Shown here: positions 16,943 through 42,288 of the stretch, one piece after another
Layout of the letters: each line of letters begins with the position of its first letter
Numbering within the stretch: the stretch's first letter is position 1
The notes under the pieces: generated by a model
What the model was told of the DNA's origin: nothing
Database searches by the model: none
What the model saw: the letters and a program-made list of their open reading frames with translations, nothing else
Source: an uncultured Verrucomicrobia subdivision 3 bacterium
Lineage (GTDB): Bacteria > Verrucomicrobiota > Verrucomicrobiia > Limisphaerales > UBA11358
Direction: 5' to 3'
Assembly: GCA_903827955.1 (NCBI GenBank)
Contig: CAIKKJ010000061.1
Location: 69,788-115,425 of the forward strand
Length of the DNA: 45,638 nt
Program-made: the position numbers and the translations under genes

Positions 16943-18238
16943 ATGAAATCGCTTTCAGCTCTATTGTCGTTCATTACCGCAGCAAACGCATTTGCCGCCG
17001 ACCCGCAGGTAGCATCGTGGTTCACGCTTAACTCCGGCAAGTTCGCACAAATCTACCAGGACAATGCCGCAAAAAACTCCGATCAACCTTCGACGACGTG
17101 GAGCAATGGCCGGAACTCACAAACGCAACCGGCCTACTGCGGCGTGCAGGAAATTCTTTCATCAGCTAACTGGATTTACATCCGCAGCACGGGGCTGGGC
17201 AGCCAGATCATGGGGCCGTGGCTCAACGGACGTTTTCCGAATCTGCCCATCGACCAGCATTTTATTTTTGCCATGTCGCGGCATCCCACGGAACAGAAAG
17301 GAAATAATTTTAATCATCTCGGCGAGATCGGAATGTTCGTGGACGGCGTGCGGATGTTTGATGCCGGCGACGCCTTTTCCTACTCGAATGGAAATGGCCG
17401 CGACGCCGACCCGCGCGCAGGCATCGGTCAAGGCGACCGCATCTGGAACCGCGACGCGTATGTGAACGAGTCACGGACTTTCGACGCCGCACTGGCGCAC
17501 CAGCAAAACTGGGGACGTTATCATTACCACGCCAATCCCATCGCCTTGCGCTACCTGCTCGGCGACCACGTTGATTTTGACGTGACCACGAAGACTTATC
17601 ACGAAAGCCAAACCACGCCGCAAAAACATTCCCCCATCGTCGGCTGGATGCAGGATGGCTATCCGCTCTACGGGCCTTACGGCTATGCGAACGCGACCAA
17701 CTCCGCGAGCGGCGTGCGCCGGATGACTTCCGGCTTTGTGTTGCGCAACGGAAAGAACGGCACGGACAATCTCGCGCAAACCGGACGCCACACCCTGCCC
17801 GTCTGGGAGGCGCGCGAACAAAATCGCTCCGCCACGCTGACCACTTCCGAAACCGGCCCGAACGTAAATGAACAATTTCCGCTTGGCCATTACCTCGAAG
17901 ACTATGCCTACCTTGGCGACAGTGGAAAAATTCTCGGTCAAGATTTTGATCTCGACGAACTAAACGGACGCTGGTGCGTCACCCCAGAATTTCCGCAAGG
18001 CACGTTCGCCTATTTCATCACGATTGATGCGGCTGGCCAGCCCGTCTATCCTTACAACATGGGTCGCCGCTATCATGGTTATCCGAACGGTCGTCTCGTC
18101 ACCGCGATTCATGAACCGGTCACGACCAATTTCATCGCTCATCCGGTGACACCCACAAAAACGGGGGCCAGCGCCGCCGCCGGGAAAACCACAACGCTGA
18201 CGTGGAACGCCAGCGGCTACGAATCCAAATCAAAATGA
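16943..18238 (+). CDS. Secreted YHYH-domain protein
   Basis: 431 aa; signal peptide MKSLSALLSFITAANAFA, motif WGRYHYHANPIALRYLLGDHV, IVGWMQDGYPLYGPYGY. Confidence 0.85.
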   Translation: MKSLSALLSFITAANAFAADPQVASWFTLNSGKFAQIYQDNAAKNSDQPSTTWSNGRNSQTQPAYCGVQEILSSANWIYIRSTGLGSQIMGPWLNGRFPNLPIDQHFIFAMSRHPTEQKGNNFNHLGEIGMFVDGVRMFDAGDAFSYSNGNGRDADPRAGIGQGDRIWNRDAYVNESRTFDAALAHQQNWGRYHYHANPIALRYLLGDHVDFDVTTKTYHESQTTPQKHSPIVGWMQDGYPLYGPYGYANATNSASGVRRMTSGFVLRNGKNGTDNLAQTGRHTLPVWEAREQNRSATLTTSETGPNVNEQFPLGHYLEDYAYLGDSGKILGQDFDLDELNGRWCVTPEFPQGTFAYFITIDAAGQPVYPYNMGRRYHGYPNGRLVTAIHEPVTTNFIAHPVTPTKTGASAAAGKTTTLTWNASGYESKSK

Positions 18239-19989
18239 CCCGGACGCGGACTATCATATTTTCCCTCGCCATGGCCTGTGGCGTGGAACTTTCCGCCGCC
18301 ACACTGCAAGTTGAAATCACGCCCAAAGTTTCCGGCGAACCGCTCCAGCCCGCGTCCTTCCGTTACCAGACTACCGGCGGCGAGACATTTTCCATCACGC
18401 GCGTCAGTTACCTCGCCAGCGATTTTGCGCTGCAACGCAACGACGGTTCGTGGCTGGAACTTTCCAATTCCGTCGCGTGGCTGGACTACGAGGCCAACCG
18501 CAATTCAGTTCACCTGGACAAAATTCCGGCGGGCGAATTCCGCGCCGTGCGTTTTCTCGTCGGCTTGAACCCAAATTTGAACCACGCTGACAGCGCGCAG
18601 TTTCCGGCGAGCCATCCGCTCAATCCCAATCTCAACGGTCTGCACTGGAGCTGGCAGGGCGGCTACATTTTTCTCGCGCTCGAAGGCTTATGGCGCAACG
18701 CCAGCGGCGAACTCGACGGCTGGTCTTACCACTTGGCGCGCGACACCAATTCCGTTCGCGTCACCCTCGCCGCGCCGCTGGCAATCACCAATGAAACTAA
18801 AGTGGAAATGGATTTCGACCTCGCCACGCTGCTGCACGCGCCGCGTTCGCTGTCATTCGCCAAGGACGGTTCTTCCACGCACTCGCGCGACGGCGACCCG
18901 ATCTCCGCCGCGCTCGTGGCGAACCTACCCGGCGCGTTCCGCGTGCATCGCGTCACGCAATTGAGCGAGACTGAAATCGCCAGCGCGCATCCCAAGCCGC
19001 TTTATTTGCCGGCAAAATTTACGCCGTATGAATTTCAGATGAGCGCGACGTTTCCGATTCCCGACCTGCCGCGCGATAATCCCCTGCTCGTCGAACGCGT
19101 CGAGCTTGGAAAAAAACTTTTCTTCGACAAGCGCGTTTCCATCAATAACCAGCAGTCCTGCGCCGATTGCCACGCGCCAGAAAAAGCGTTCACGGACGGA
19201 CGCCGCACGGCGCGCGGCGCGGAAGGCACATTCGGCGAACGCAATTCCATGCCGCTGTTCAACCTGGCCTGGAAGAAAGAATTTTTCTGGGATGGCCGCG
19301 CAAAAAGTTTGCGTGAGCAAGTTTTGCAGCCGATTCAAAACCCGATTGAGATGCACCAGTCGCTGACAAACTTGGTCGTGAAGCTACAAACAGAAAAGCC
19401 GGAAGCCAGTTACCCCGCCCGCTTCGCCGCCGCGTTCGGCTCGCCGGAGATCACGGCGGAAAAAATTGCGCTCGCGCTGGAAAATTACCTGCTCACGCTC
19501 ACGTCGTTCGACGCCAAGTTTGACCGTGTGCTGCGCGGTGAGGAATCGTTCACCGCCGAGGAGCAGCGCGGGTTTGAATTGTTCTCCACGGAATACGACC
19601 CGCGTCGCGGGCAGTTCGGGGCGGATTGTTTTCATTGCCACGGCGGGCCGCTGTTTCAGAGCCAGGCGTTTGCGAATAACGGCTCGGACGGCGCGCTGCT
19701 CGACTTGGGCCGCGAAAAAGTTACGGGCAAGGCGAGCGACCGGGGGAAATTTTCCACGCCCAGCCTGCGCAACATCGCGCTGACCGCGCCGTATATGCAC
19801 GACGGACGTTTCCGGACTTTGGAAGACGTCATTCAGCATTACTCCACCGGCGTGCCACGCAGCCCGACGCTCGACCCCAACCTCGCCAAGCATCCCGACG
19901 GCGGGGTGCCGTTGAGCGATGAAGACAAGCACGCTTTGGTGGCGTTTTTGAAAACGTTGACGGACGAACAGTCTGTCCGGGCGAAATAA
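18235..19989 (+). CDS. Fusion protein: N-terminal MbnP-like domain plus C-terminal MbnH/MauG-type di-haem cytochrome c peroxidase
   Basis: Start set at ATG 18235 (ATGA overlap with YHYH gene; signal peptide MTRTRTIIFSLAMACGVELSAA). N-terminal half resembles the MbnP family (FRAVRFLVGLNPNLNHAD, LHWSWQGGYIFLALEG). C-terminal half has CADCH (19159-19173) and CFHCH (19627-19641), RRTARGAEGTFGERNSMPLFNLAWKKEFFWDGRAKSLREQ. Confidence 0.88.
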   Translation: MTRTRTIIFSLAMACGVELSAATLQVEITPKVSGEPLQPASFRYQTTGGETFSITRVSYLASDFALQRNDGSWLELSNSVAWLDYEANRNSVHLDKIPAGEFRAVRFLVGLNPNLNHADSAQFPASHPLNPNLNGLHWSWQGGYIFLALEGLWRNASGELDGWSYHLARDTNSVRVTLAAPLAITNETKVEMDFDLATLLHAPRSLSFAKDGSSTHSRDGDPISAALVANLPGAFRVHRVTQLSETEIASAHPKPLYLPAKFTPYEFQMSATFPIPDLPRDNPLLVERVELGKKLFFDKRVSINNQQSCADCHAPEKAFTDGRRTARGAEGTFGERNSMPLFNLAWKKEFFWDGRAKSLREQVLQPIQNPIEMHQSLTNLVVKLQTEKPEASYPARFAAAFGSPEITAEKIALALENYLLTLTSFDAKFDRVLRGEESFTAEEQRGFELFSTEYDPRRGQFGADCFHCHGGPLFQSQAFANNGSDGALLDLGREKVTGKASDRGKFSTPSLRNIALTAPYMHDGRFRTLEDVIQHYSTGVPRSPTLDPNLAKHPDGGVPLSDEDKHALVAFLKTLTDEQSVRAK

Positions 19990-39266: not shown

Positions 39267-40538
39267 ATGAAAACAAAAATTGCAGGAATCATTTTGGGCG
39301 GCCTGACGGCCGCGAACATTTTTGCGGACGGCACGAACGAACCGCCCGCCACGCTTTGGAACCGCGCCACGCTGCTCGGCGACCTCGGCGGCGTGCGACC
39401 CAAAATCGCCGAGCATGGCTTTTCGTTCACGCCGGTTTACACCGCCGAAGTCATGGGGGAACTGGCCGGGGAAAATTCCGGCAGCCGCATCGTTTCCGCG
39501 CAGCAGCTCGCCCTGCCATTCGATGTGGATTTGGAAAAATCCATCGGCTGGCGCGACGCTCTGTTCCACGCCAATGCCTTTTGGATTACCGGGCGCGGGC
39601 TGACCGAGGACAACATCGGTGACCTCGCCAACGTCAGCAACATCAATGCCTTTCGCACCTTCCGCCTGAATGAACTCTGGCTCCAGCAAACGCTCTGGGA
39701 CAAAAAAATTTCTGTGAAAGCCGGCGCGATTGCGGTGGACACGGAATTTTTCAGTTCCGCGTGCTCCGGGCTCTTCATCAACAGCTCGTTCGGCACGTTT
39801 TCGCTCATCGCCGCCAATCTTGCCAACACGCCCATCTATCCAGTTGCCGCGCCCGCCGTGCGCGTGGCCATGCGCGCGGGCACACACTGGAATTTTCTCG
39901 CAGGAATTTTTGACGGCGACTGCCTTGCGCAGGACGTGAATAAGAACGGCACAGACTTTCACATTGCCAGCGGTGATGGCGCGCTGATTTTTTCCGAGGC
40001 GCAATTCACGCCGCATCCCGATGCCGATGACAAAACGCTCGCCAGCATTTTCAAGCTCGGCGGATTTTTGCACACGAAACGCACGCCGACTTGGGACGCG
40101 CAACTCAACGGCGACAACTCCGGCGGCAGCGTGAACTACGGCTTCTACGGCGTGGCGGAACAGGATTTATACAAGCGCGACGGCAAACGCGTGACGGCCT
40201 TCCTGCGCGGCGGCGGCGCGCCCGGCAATCGCAACGTCATCGGCTGGTATTTTGATACGGGCTTCAACTTCACCGGTTTTCTGCCGGGCCGCGACAACGA
40301 CGTGGCGGGCATCGCCTTTGCGCGCTCCAGTTTTTCCCGCAGCTTCAGCGACTATCAGCAGGCGGCCAACGCTACGGATTCGTTCGGTGCGGAAATGGTC
40401 ATCGAAGCCACCTACAAGGCGCAACTCACGCCGTGGTGGATGGTGCAGCCGGATTTGCAAATCATCCTCACGCCCGGCGGTGAAAAAAATTCCGGCAACG
40501 CCGTCGTGCTCGGCCTGCGCACGGCAGTCTCGTTTTAA
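39267..40538 (+). CDS. Carbohydrate-selective porin, OprB-like
   Basis: Start at ATG 39267 with signal peptide MKTKIAGIILGGLTAANIFA; WNRATLLGDLGGVRPKIAEHGFSFTPVYTAEVMGEL... ETTYKAQLTPWWMVQPDLQIILTPGG-type ending (here VIEATYKAQLTPWWMVQPDLQIILTPGGEKN). Confidence 0.85.
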   Translation: MKTKIAGIILGGLTAANIFADGTNEPPATLWNRATLLGDLGGVRPKIAEHGFSFTPVYTAEVMGELAGENSGSRIVSAQQLALPFDVDLEKSIGWRDALFHANAFWITGRGLTEDNIGDLANVSNINAFRTFRLNELWLQQTLWDKKISVKAGAIAVDTEFFSSACSGLFINSSFGTFSLIAANLANTPIYPVAAPAVRVAMRAGTHWNFLAGIFDGDCLAQDVNKNGTDFHIASGDGALIFSEAQFTPHPDADDKTLASIFKLGGFLHTKRTPTWDAQLNGDNSGGSVNYGFYGVAEQDLYKRDGKRVTAFLRGGGAPGNRNVIGWYFDTGFNFTGFLPGRDNDVAGIAFARSSFSRSFSDYQQAANATDSFGAEMVIEATYKAQLTPWWMVQPDLQIILTPGGEKNSGNAVVLGLRTAVSF

Positions 40539-41371
40539 TTTCCGTTTTTTGGCTTTGGTTTGAGCATCACCAACAAGCCGCACAGGAGCAGCATCGCACC
40601 CAGCACACAGATGATGGCCGCGCCCGTTGGCAAATCAAAACGATACGCCGCATACAATCCCAGCACGCCCGCCGCCGTCGCGATGCCCCACCCCAGCGCC
40701 AGCAGCGCGGCGATGCGCGTGACCAGCAGATTCGCGCACACCGCCGGCACGATGAGATACGAAAACACCAGCAGCACGCCGCCGATTTGCACAAAGCTCG
40801 TGACGACCAGGCCGAACAGCGCGTAAAAAATGAAATCCCACCAGCGCACCGCCATGCCTTCCGCCTCCGCGCGTTCCGGCTCAAACGAAATCATCATGAA
40901 TTTTTTCCGAAAAATAAAATGCACCGCACCGATGGTGAGATAGATGCCAAATGTTTTCAGCACTTCTTTCGGGCTGACCAGCAGCACGTCACCGATGAGC
41001 GTGCGACGCAATTCTTCGTTACCTTCCGCCGTGCGGCTCAACAGCAAAATTCCCGTGGCCGCCGCCACGACGTAGATGATTCCAATCAACGCCTCCTGCG
41101 GCACGCGCGAATGATTTCGCATCCGCGTCAGCGCAAAAATCGCCGCGCCCACGAGCGTGAAGCCCACCGACCAGATGTAAGTCTGCGTGTCCGCCGCCTC
41201 GTGGCCGAGCAGCAAACTCACGCACGCGCCAAGCGACGCCACCTGCGCGAGCGCAAGGTCCACAAAAATTACTTCGCGCCGCACAATATGCAGGCCGAGA
41301 TAAACCAGAATTCCCGGCAGCAACAGGCACGCAATCAGCGGCCACTTCATCACGGTAAAAATTTCAGCCAT
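40535..41371 (-). CDS. Metal (Zn/Mn) ABC transporter permease, ZnuB/TroC-like
   Basis: 278 aa; multi-TM; HIVRREVIFVDLALAQVASLGACVSLLLGHE, SYLIVPAVCANLLVTR. Confidence 0.9.
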   Translation of the reverse strand: MAEIFTVMKWPLIACLLLPGILVYLGLHIVRREVIFVDLALAQVASLGACVSLLLGHEAADTQTYIWSVGFTLVGAAIFALTRMRNHSRVPQEALIGIIYVVAAATGILLLSRTAEGNEELRRTLIGDVLLVSPKEVLKTFGIYLTIGAVHFIFRKKFMMISFEPERAEAEGMAVRWWDFIFYALFGLVVTSFVQIGGVLLVFSYLIVPAVCANLLVTRIAALLALGWGIATAAGVLGLYAAYRFDLPTGAAIICVLGAMLLLCGLLVMLKPKPKNGN

Positions 41372-41376
41372 AACAA

Positions 41377-42288
41377 TTATTTTTTCTCCGCCAAAGCCGC
41401 CGCCAGCGAGTTGACCAGCGAATCAATCAACTCAATATAGCCGCCGTCCGTGCCTTTCAGTCCGCCGGGAAATTGCGTCACCGGCACAACCGTCGCGCCG
41501 GTTTCGCGCGCCACGGTTTCCGCCGTGCGATGATTCAGATACGCGTCCACGATGATGACGTTCACCTGTTCCGCCTTCATCTTGGTGATGACCTCGGCAA
41601 GGTGTGACGGCGTCGGCGGAATGCCCGGCTTCGGTTCGAGGAACAACTCAATCTTCAGCCCGAACTCCCGTGCGAAATACGGCCAAGAATCGTGATACGC
41701 CACGACGCTGCGGCCCTTGAACGGCGCGAGCTTCTGCCGCCACTCGGCCAGCTTCGCGTCCAGTGCGGCGAGAAACTTTTTCAGGTTCGCGCGATACGCA
41801 TCGGCGTTTGCCGGATCATTTTCCGCGAGCGCCGCCGCGATGGTTTGGGCGATGATTTTTCCGTTGGACGGGCTGATGACGAAATGCGGATTGCCCGCCG
41901 CGTGAATGTCGCCGCGCGAACGGTCGAGCGTCGCCGGCACATCCAGCAACGGCACGCCCTGCGCGCAGTTCACATGGCCGGGCGCGCCCGCCACGATTTT
42001 TTCGTTGCGCGATTGGTCAAGCAACGCCGGCAGCCAGCCAATTTCTAGTTCCGCGCCGCCTTCGATGACCATGTCGGCGCGGTTCAGCTTCGAGATGAAG
42101 CTCGGCTTCGCGTCCACGAAGTGCGGGTCTTCCGTGGGCTTCGCCAGCGTGGCGAGCGTGATTTTATCACCGCCAATTTCTTTCGCGATGGCCGCGAGGT
42201 CAGACGTGGTGGCAACGACATTCAGTTTCGCCTGCGCGCTTGCCGCGAAAAGCAACGCGCCTAAAAATGTAAGAATTTTATTTTTCAT
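41377..42288 (-). CDS. Metal (Zn/Mn) ABC transporter substrate-binding protein, ZnuA/TroA-like
   Basis: 303 aa; signal peptide; TEDPHFVDAKPSFISKLNRADMVIEGGAELE, GNPHFVISP, VAYHDSWPYFAREFGL. Confidence 0.92.
   Translation of the reverse strand: MKNKILTFLGALLFAASAQAKLNVVATTSDLAAIAKEIGGDKITLATLAKPTEDPHFVDAKPSFISKLNRADMVIEGGAELEIGWLPALLDQSRNEKIVAGAPGHVNCAQGVPLLDVPATLDRSRGDIHAAGNPHFVISPSNGKIIAQTIAAALAENDPANADAYRANLKKFLAALDAKLAEWRQKLAPFKGRSVVAYHDSWPYFAREFGLKIELFLEPKPGIPPTPSHLAEVITKMKAEQVNVIIVDAYLNHRTAETVARETGATVVPVTQFPGGLKGTDGGYIELIDSLVNSLAAALAEKK

Follow-up and report, generated by a model that had tools for sequence, protein, structure and literature searches.

The locus considered here lies in a window of 45,638 nucleotides (the whole stretch of DNA analyzed) from an uncultured Verrucomicrobia subdivision 3 bacterium, and it raises the question of whether a MauG/MbnH-type di-haem enzyme and the MbnP protein it would modify can be parts of one polypeptide, and what such a chain would do. 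The preliminary description, made from the letters alone, had read one frame as an MbnP-type domain followed by a two-haem MauG-type peroxidase, that is, as a two-gene pair fused in this genome. Translation of the window confirms the one-polypeptide reading, with both halves sharing a single 584-residue frame at 18235..19989 (+) that has no internal stop (Table 1). The product looks like a secreted protein, judging from a predicted Sec signal peptide, and its genome contains one MbnP.

Table 1. Features of the fusion gene and its upstream neighbor, in positions of the window.
Feature	Position	Strand	Basis
YHYH-domain protein (PF14240), directly upstream of the fusion	16943..18238	+	Pfam
MbnP–MauG/MbnH fusion gene, 584 aa, ATG start	18235..19989	+	translation, Pfam
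Predicted Sec signal peptide, residues 1-21, MTRTRTIIFSLAMACGVELSAA	18235..18297	+	read from sequence
MbnP domain, residues 23-235 (Pfam match 23-211)	18301..18939	+	Pfam; fold match 7L6G
H137-W138-S139-W140, WxW motif; W138 predicted kynurenine precursor	18643..18654	+	alignment
H166, predicted Cu ligand at the position of the His conserved in WMVH of classical MbnP	18730..18732	+	
H216, predicted Cu ligand in place of the Met conserved in GCM of classical MbnP	18880..18882	+	
Linker, residues 236-273	18940..19053	+	alignment of fusions; HW-to-haem spacing
Di-haem MauG/MbnH-type domain, residues 274-581	19054..19977	+	Pfam, NCBIfam, PDB sequence and fold matches
Haem 1 site CADCH (309-313); expected high-spin peroxide-reacting haem	19159..19173	+	
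W352 (between haems), Q362, P366, E372	19288..19350	+	alignment
Haem 2 site CFHCH (465-469)	19627..19641	+	
Y536, axial-ligand position	19840..19842	+	alignment

Identity of the two halves

The assignment of the N-terminal half to MbnP is confirmed by the PF20243 profile (E 2.5e-34, 119.2 bits against a cut-off of 27) and by the fold of a structural model of this half (pLDDT 95), whose six significant PDB matches are all chains of the MbnP structure 7L6G (TM 0.66-0.70, probability 1.0, E from 1.7e-9). A PDB sequence search with the single MbnP half gave no match, and a profile built from 43 MbnP domains gave a weak one to 7L6G (E 0.15). Of the two profiles that the preliminary description had proposed as a check, CCP_MauG scores above its cut-off, whereas TIGR04052 (MbnP family copper-binding protein) reaches 41.8 bits against a cut-off of 140 and covers residues 84-171 only.

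The C-terminal half matches PF03150 (CCP_MauG) over residues 287-437 (E 1.6e-55, 188.3 bits against a cut-off of 25.6), and both Pfam domains were matched in all 40 of the 40 fusions scanned. Its best NCBIfam match is TIGR04039 (MbnH) at 234.9 bits, below the cut-off of 362.85, and TIGR03791 (MauG) gives 181.9 bits against 443.85. The best PDB sequence match is the MbnH structure 6E1C, which is also the top fold match of the full-chain model (pLDDT 87, pTM 0.83), with MauG structures among the other top fold matches. The residue set of MauG/MbnH-type enzymes is present in full: two CxxCH motifs, an inter-haem Trp, distal Gln and Glu, and an axial Tyr in place of Met, so that the two-haem MauG-type character claimed for this half holds. 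W352, Q362, P366, and E372 follow one another in the order and spacing of MauG W93, Q103, P107, and E113. MauG itself makes TTQ on a separate protein, methylamine dehydrogenase, and no mau genes were recognized among the listed open reading frames of the window.

The axial position also bears on what kind of enzyme this is. In MauG and MbnH, too, the residue aligned with Y536 is Tyr, whereas ordinary peroxidases carry Met there. Y536 is missing from just one of 105 fusions, an incomplete row. Pfam names the domain a di-haem cytochrome c peroxidase, and Trp chains can protect haem enzymes, both of which would suit a protective peroxidase that removes peroxide, with W138 and W140 sacrificial or structural and no kynurenine site being built. 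The axial Tyr argues against such a role, as does the placement of W138, which together with the invariant H166 and H216 sits exactly at the kynurenine-copper site of MbnP, and we consider this explanation very improbable.

Distribution and origin of the single-chain form

Other genomes carry the fusion too. MbnP was present in 44 of 146 genomes of the same order and in 22 of 388 genomes spread over the phylum, nearly all of the latter from one class. Among the 55 loci from both searches, which include the window itself, 51 carry the MbnP match and both CxxCH motifs in a single frame; the 4 exceptions are a frame cut short by a contig end, a break after the first haem, a split-gene fragment (G253), and a partial MbnP from outside the class. 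Named genomes gave a similar picture when scanned: among the best 80 of 404 matches, all from Verrucomicrobiota except one labeled only "bacterium", 76 could be parsed, and 74 of these have both haems in the same frame, the remaining 2 being truncated by a contig end. The fusion occurs in the complete genome of Verrucomicrobia bacterium IMCC26134 and in Chthoniobacter flavus Ellin428. Since the two halves are in frame in nearly all loci of both sets, isolates and complete genomes included, a hidden frameshift or chimeric assembly can be ruled out, and what had been described as a pair fused in this genome becomes a phylum-wide arrangement: the fused single chain is the normal form in Verrucomicrobiota.

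The linker has the lowest conservation of the whole protein yet an almost constant length, and most fusions have about 172 residues between the HW motif and the first CxxCH. Longer linkers or insertions occur in 4 loci (L026, L030, L016, and L019), where this distance is 191-242 residues. In one locus (L027:1411-2907) what looks like a frameshift, which could reflect decay or sequencing error, closes the fusion frame behind the first haem. The long N-terminal additions of 2 further homologs (L079, 1143 aa; L126, 1047 aa) were interpreted as an open frame that extends beyond the true start on its upstream side, since these stretches are Arg-rich read-through and belong to no recognizable family.

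In a tree of di-haem domains, for which rooting and sampling are limited, 25 fusions form one clade (support 100/97) that falls apart from both classical MbnH and the peroxidase of an unfused Deinococcus pair. Joined to this clade (98/99) are two proteins from Photobacterium and a second MauG-like protein encoded by the genome of the window. Because the fusions make up one clade outside MbnH, it is probable that one fusion event gave rise to all of them, with a peroxidase half that is not just a classical MbnH linked to its partner. The second MauG-like protein (458 aa; G000:C38:7841-8566, locus L144) has a different N-terminal region without MbnP, and its nearest neighbors in the tree are encoded on Photobacterium plasmids. 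No MbnP was found beside it or beside the Photobacterium proteins in the stretches read.

The predicted kynurenine and copper site

Conservation was counted over 105 non-redundant fusions, less than 90% identical to one another. H137, W138, E150, H166, H216, D221, W346, W352, Q362, and E372 are the same in every one of the 105, so that all the residues that oxidation and copper binding would need are conserved. W138 and W140 had both been put forward as candidate sites of modification. The W138-S-W140 motif aligns with the WNW of MbnP; W138, the invariant member, corresponds to the first Trp of the MbnP WxW motif, and W140 is kept in 104 of the 105.

In a 2021 paper on the structure of MbnP, this first Trp reportedly becomes kynurenine, and the Cu(I) site is said to combine this kynurenine with one His, one Met, and a solvent molecule. 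We infer that the His and Met are the conserved ones of the alignment. The methanotroph MbnP/MbnH system (7L6G and 6E1C; TIGR04052 and TIGR04039) consists of the same pair of domains, encoded in matching order and with matching folds, and shares the WxW motif, the conserved His, and the MauG-type haem residues. The fusion differs in being one polypeptide instead of two, in scoring below both NCBIfam cut-offs, and in having its peroxidase half in a separate clade of the di-haem tree. The copper site differs as well: the fusion has His137 before the Trp and His216 for the Met of MbnP, and lacks the four-Cys motif of classical MbnP, with no Cys at all in residues 23-235.

The pair on D. radiodurans plasmid 3 (WP_187767772.1 and WP_028328040.1; L136:3872-5726) resembles the fusion in order, orientation, WxW motif, MauG-type residues, and the missing four-Cys motif, but consists of two genes 55 bp apart. 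Its MbnP has a His near, not at, the position of H216, and a Met-rich C-terminal tail (MSMPMPAMPGQPQH). Some other MbnH-type di-haem enzymes (L137:3932-5092, L138:2899-4053, L139:2899-4050, and L141:3777-4946) are labeled "methanobactin export MATE transporter MbnM" in a plasmid gene table, an evident naming error.

A copper site built from two His and a kynurenine is found in CorA, whose gene partner is a di-haem peroxidase (PMC3912023). With His216 in place of Met, the fusion is therefore predicted to combine the MbnP scaffold with a two-His site like that of CorA. In the methanotroph CorA/CorB and MopE/SACCP systems a kynurenine and two His form the site that the fusion residues predict, but CorA and MopE are separate proteins, and the PDB fold search with the N-terminal model gave no significant match to CorA or MopE.

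Taken together with the families to which the halves belong, these residues make it fairly probable, in our judgment, that the di-haem domain oxidizes W138 of its own chain to kynurenine and so matures a Cu(I) site. By analogy with those families, the fusion protein would be exported and cytochrome c maturation would attach two haems to its C-terminal domain; peroxide would then oxidize the two haems by way of W352, giving a high-valent state like that of MauG, and this state would draw electrons from W138 of the attached MbnP domain and convert it to kynurenine. Cu(I) could then bind at the modified site, where H166, H216, and possibly H137 would take part, and the mature protein, along with the YHYH protein encoded next to it, may handle copper in the cell envelope. 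Counting against this explanation are the NCBIfam scores below cut-off, the separate clade, the missing Met and four Cys, and the fact that the usual neighbor is a YHYH gene instead of a known copper gene.

The same oxidation could also take place between chains, the di-haem domain modifying the MbnP of another molecule in a dimer or transiently, and the fusion would then merely fix expression and stoichiometry. Many bacterial di-haem peroxidases are homodimers, a linker of variable sequence does not force contact in cis, and separate-chain pairs such as that of D. radiodurans exist and must act in trans. The whole-chain pTM, however, suggests a defined packing of both halves, and together with the near-constant spacing from HW to haem it suggests a fixed arrangement within one chain; on the strength of linker length and fold score we hold oxidation between chains to be rather unlikely. 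Covariation between the halves (14 pairs above z=5, confounded by ancestry) was left out as evidence of contact because it comes from only 105 related sequences.

MauG-type enzymes act at a distance on separate partners, and how the target is found and held is a central question for them. The fusion naturally places enzyme and substrate 1:1 in one chain, with W138 as the one predicted site, so that electron transfer, peroxide dependence, and the conversion of Trp to kynurenine can be traced in a single purified protein; if oxidation does occur in cis, it is a simple candidate for a self-modifying protein. It would also widen the predicted reach of kynurenine-type copper sites to a large phylum, where the site is expected to contain two His. 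Neither component is new as such, and Pfam annotates both halves. The literature searched, a set without the main MbnP/MbnH papers, gave no description of the one-chain protein, of how widely it is spread, of the replacement of Met by His, or of the partnership with YHYH.

The YHYH neighbor and copper context

The ATG of the fusion lies in a four-base overlap (ATGA) with the stop codon of the YHYH gene, its conserved operon partner on the upstream side, and the two genes are therefore probably translationally coupled. YHYH is the commonest neighbor of the fusion across Verrucomicrobiota: among the scanned genes lying directly next to it, PF14240 was found in 38 of 69 on the upstream side and 7 of 35 on the downstream side, nearly all on the same strand. 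Chance adjacency is excluded because the 3.86-Mb genome contains just two YHYH genes, and the YHYH family is likely a component of the same system as the fusion.

This association invites another explanation, in which the matured MbnP domain passes electrons or copper to the haems and the protein works as a Cu-dihaem peroxidase or oxidase on some other target, perhaps the YHYH partner. Besides the frequent YHYH neighbor, a continuing catalytic role would account for a permanent linkage after a one-time modification, which maturation alone does not explain. Tyr ligation of the MauG kind, as predicted at Y536, is poor for ordinary peroxidase turnover, as established for MauG, and we know of no MbnP/MbnH precedent for such a catalyst, which we regard as improbable. 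A combination of the two ideas, a self-maturing enzyme class that builds its kynurenine copper site in cis and then serves as a redox catalyst or copper oxidase acting on the YHYH protein or a cargo, also seems to us doubtful, with only a small chance of being correct. Maturation of W138 in cis, followed by copper handling in the envelope, is the reading we retain.

Genes near other fusions and unfused pairs support copper handling. A CusA/CzcA pump gene lies directly upstream of the fusion in three Verrucomicrobiota loci, and a CusB-like adaptor in one; the unfused D. radiodurans pair adjoins CopC/CopD, and a Paracoccus pair adjoins PCu(A)C and SCO. In the window itself the fusion has no copper gene beside it. 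About 20 kb away in the same window, at 40535-42288 (-), are genes that read as a ZnuA/ZnuB-like metal ABC transporter.
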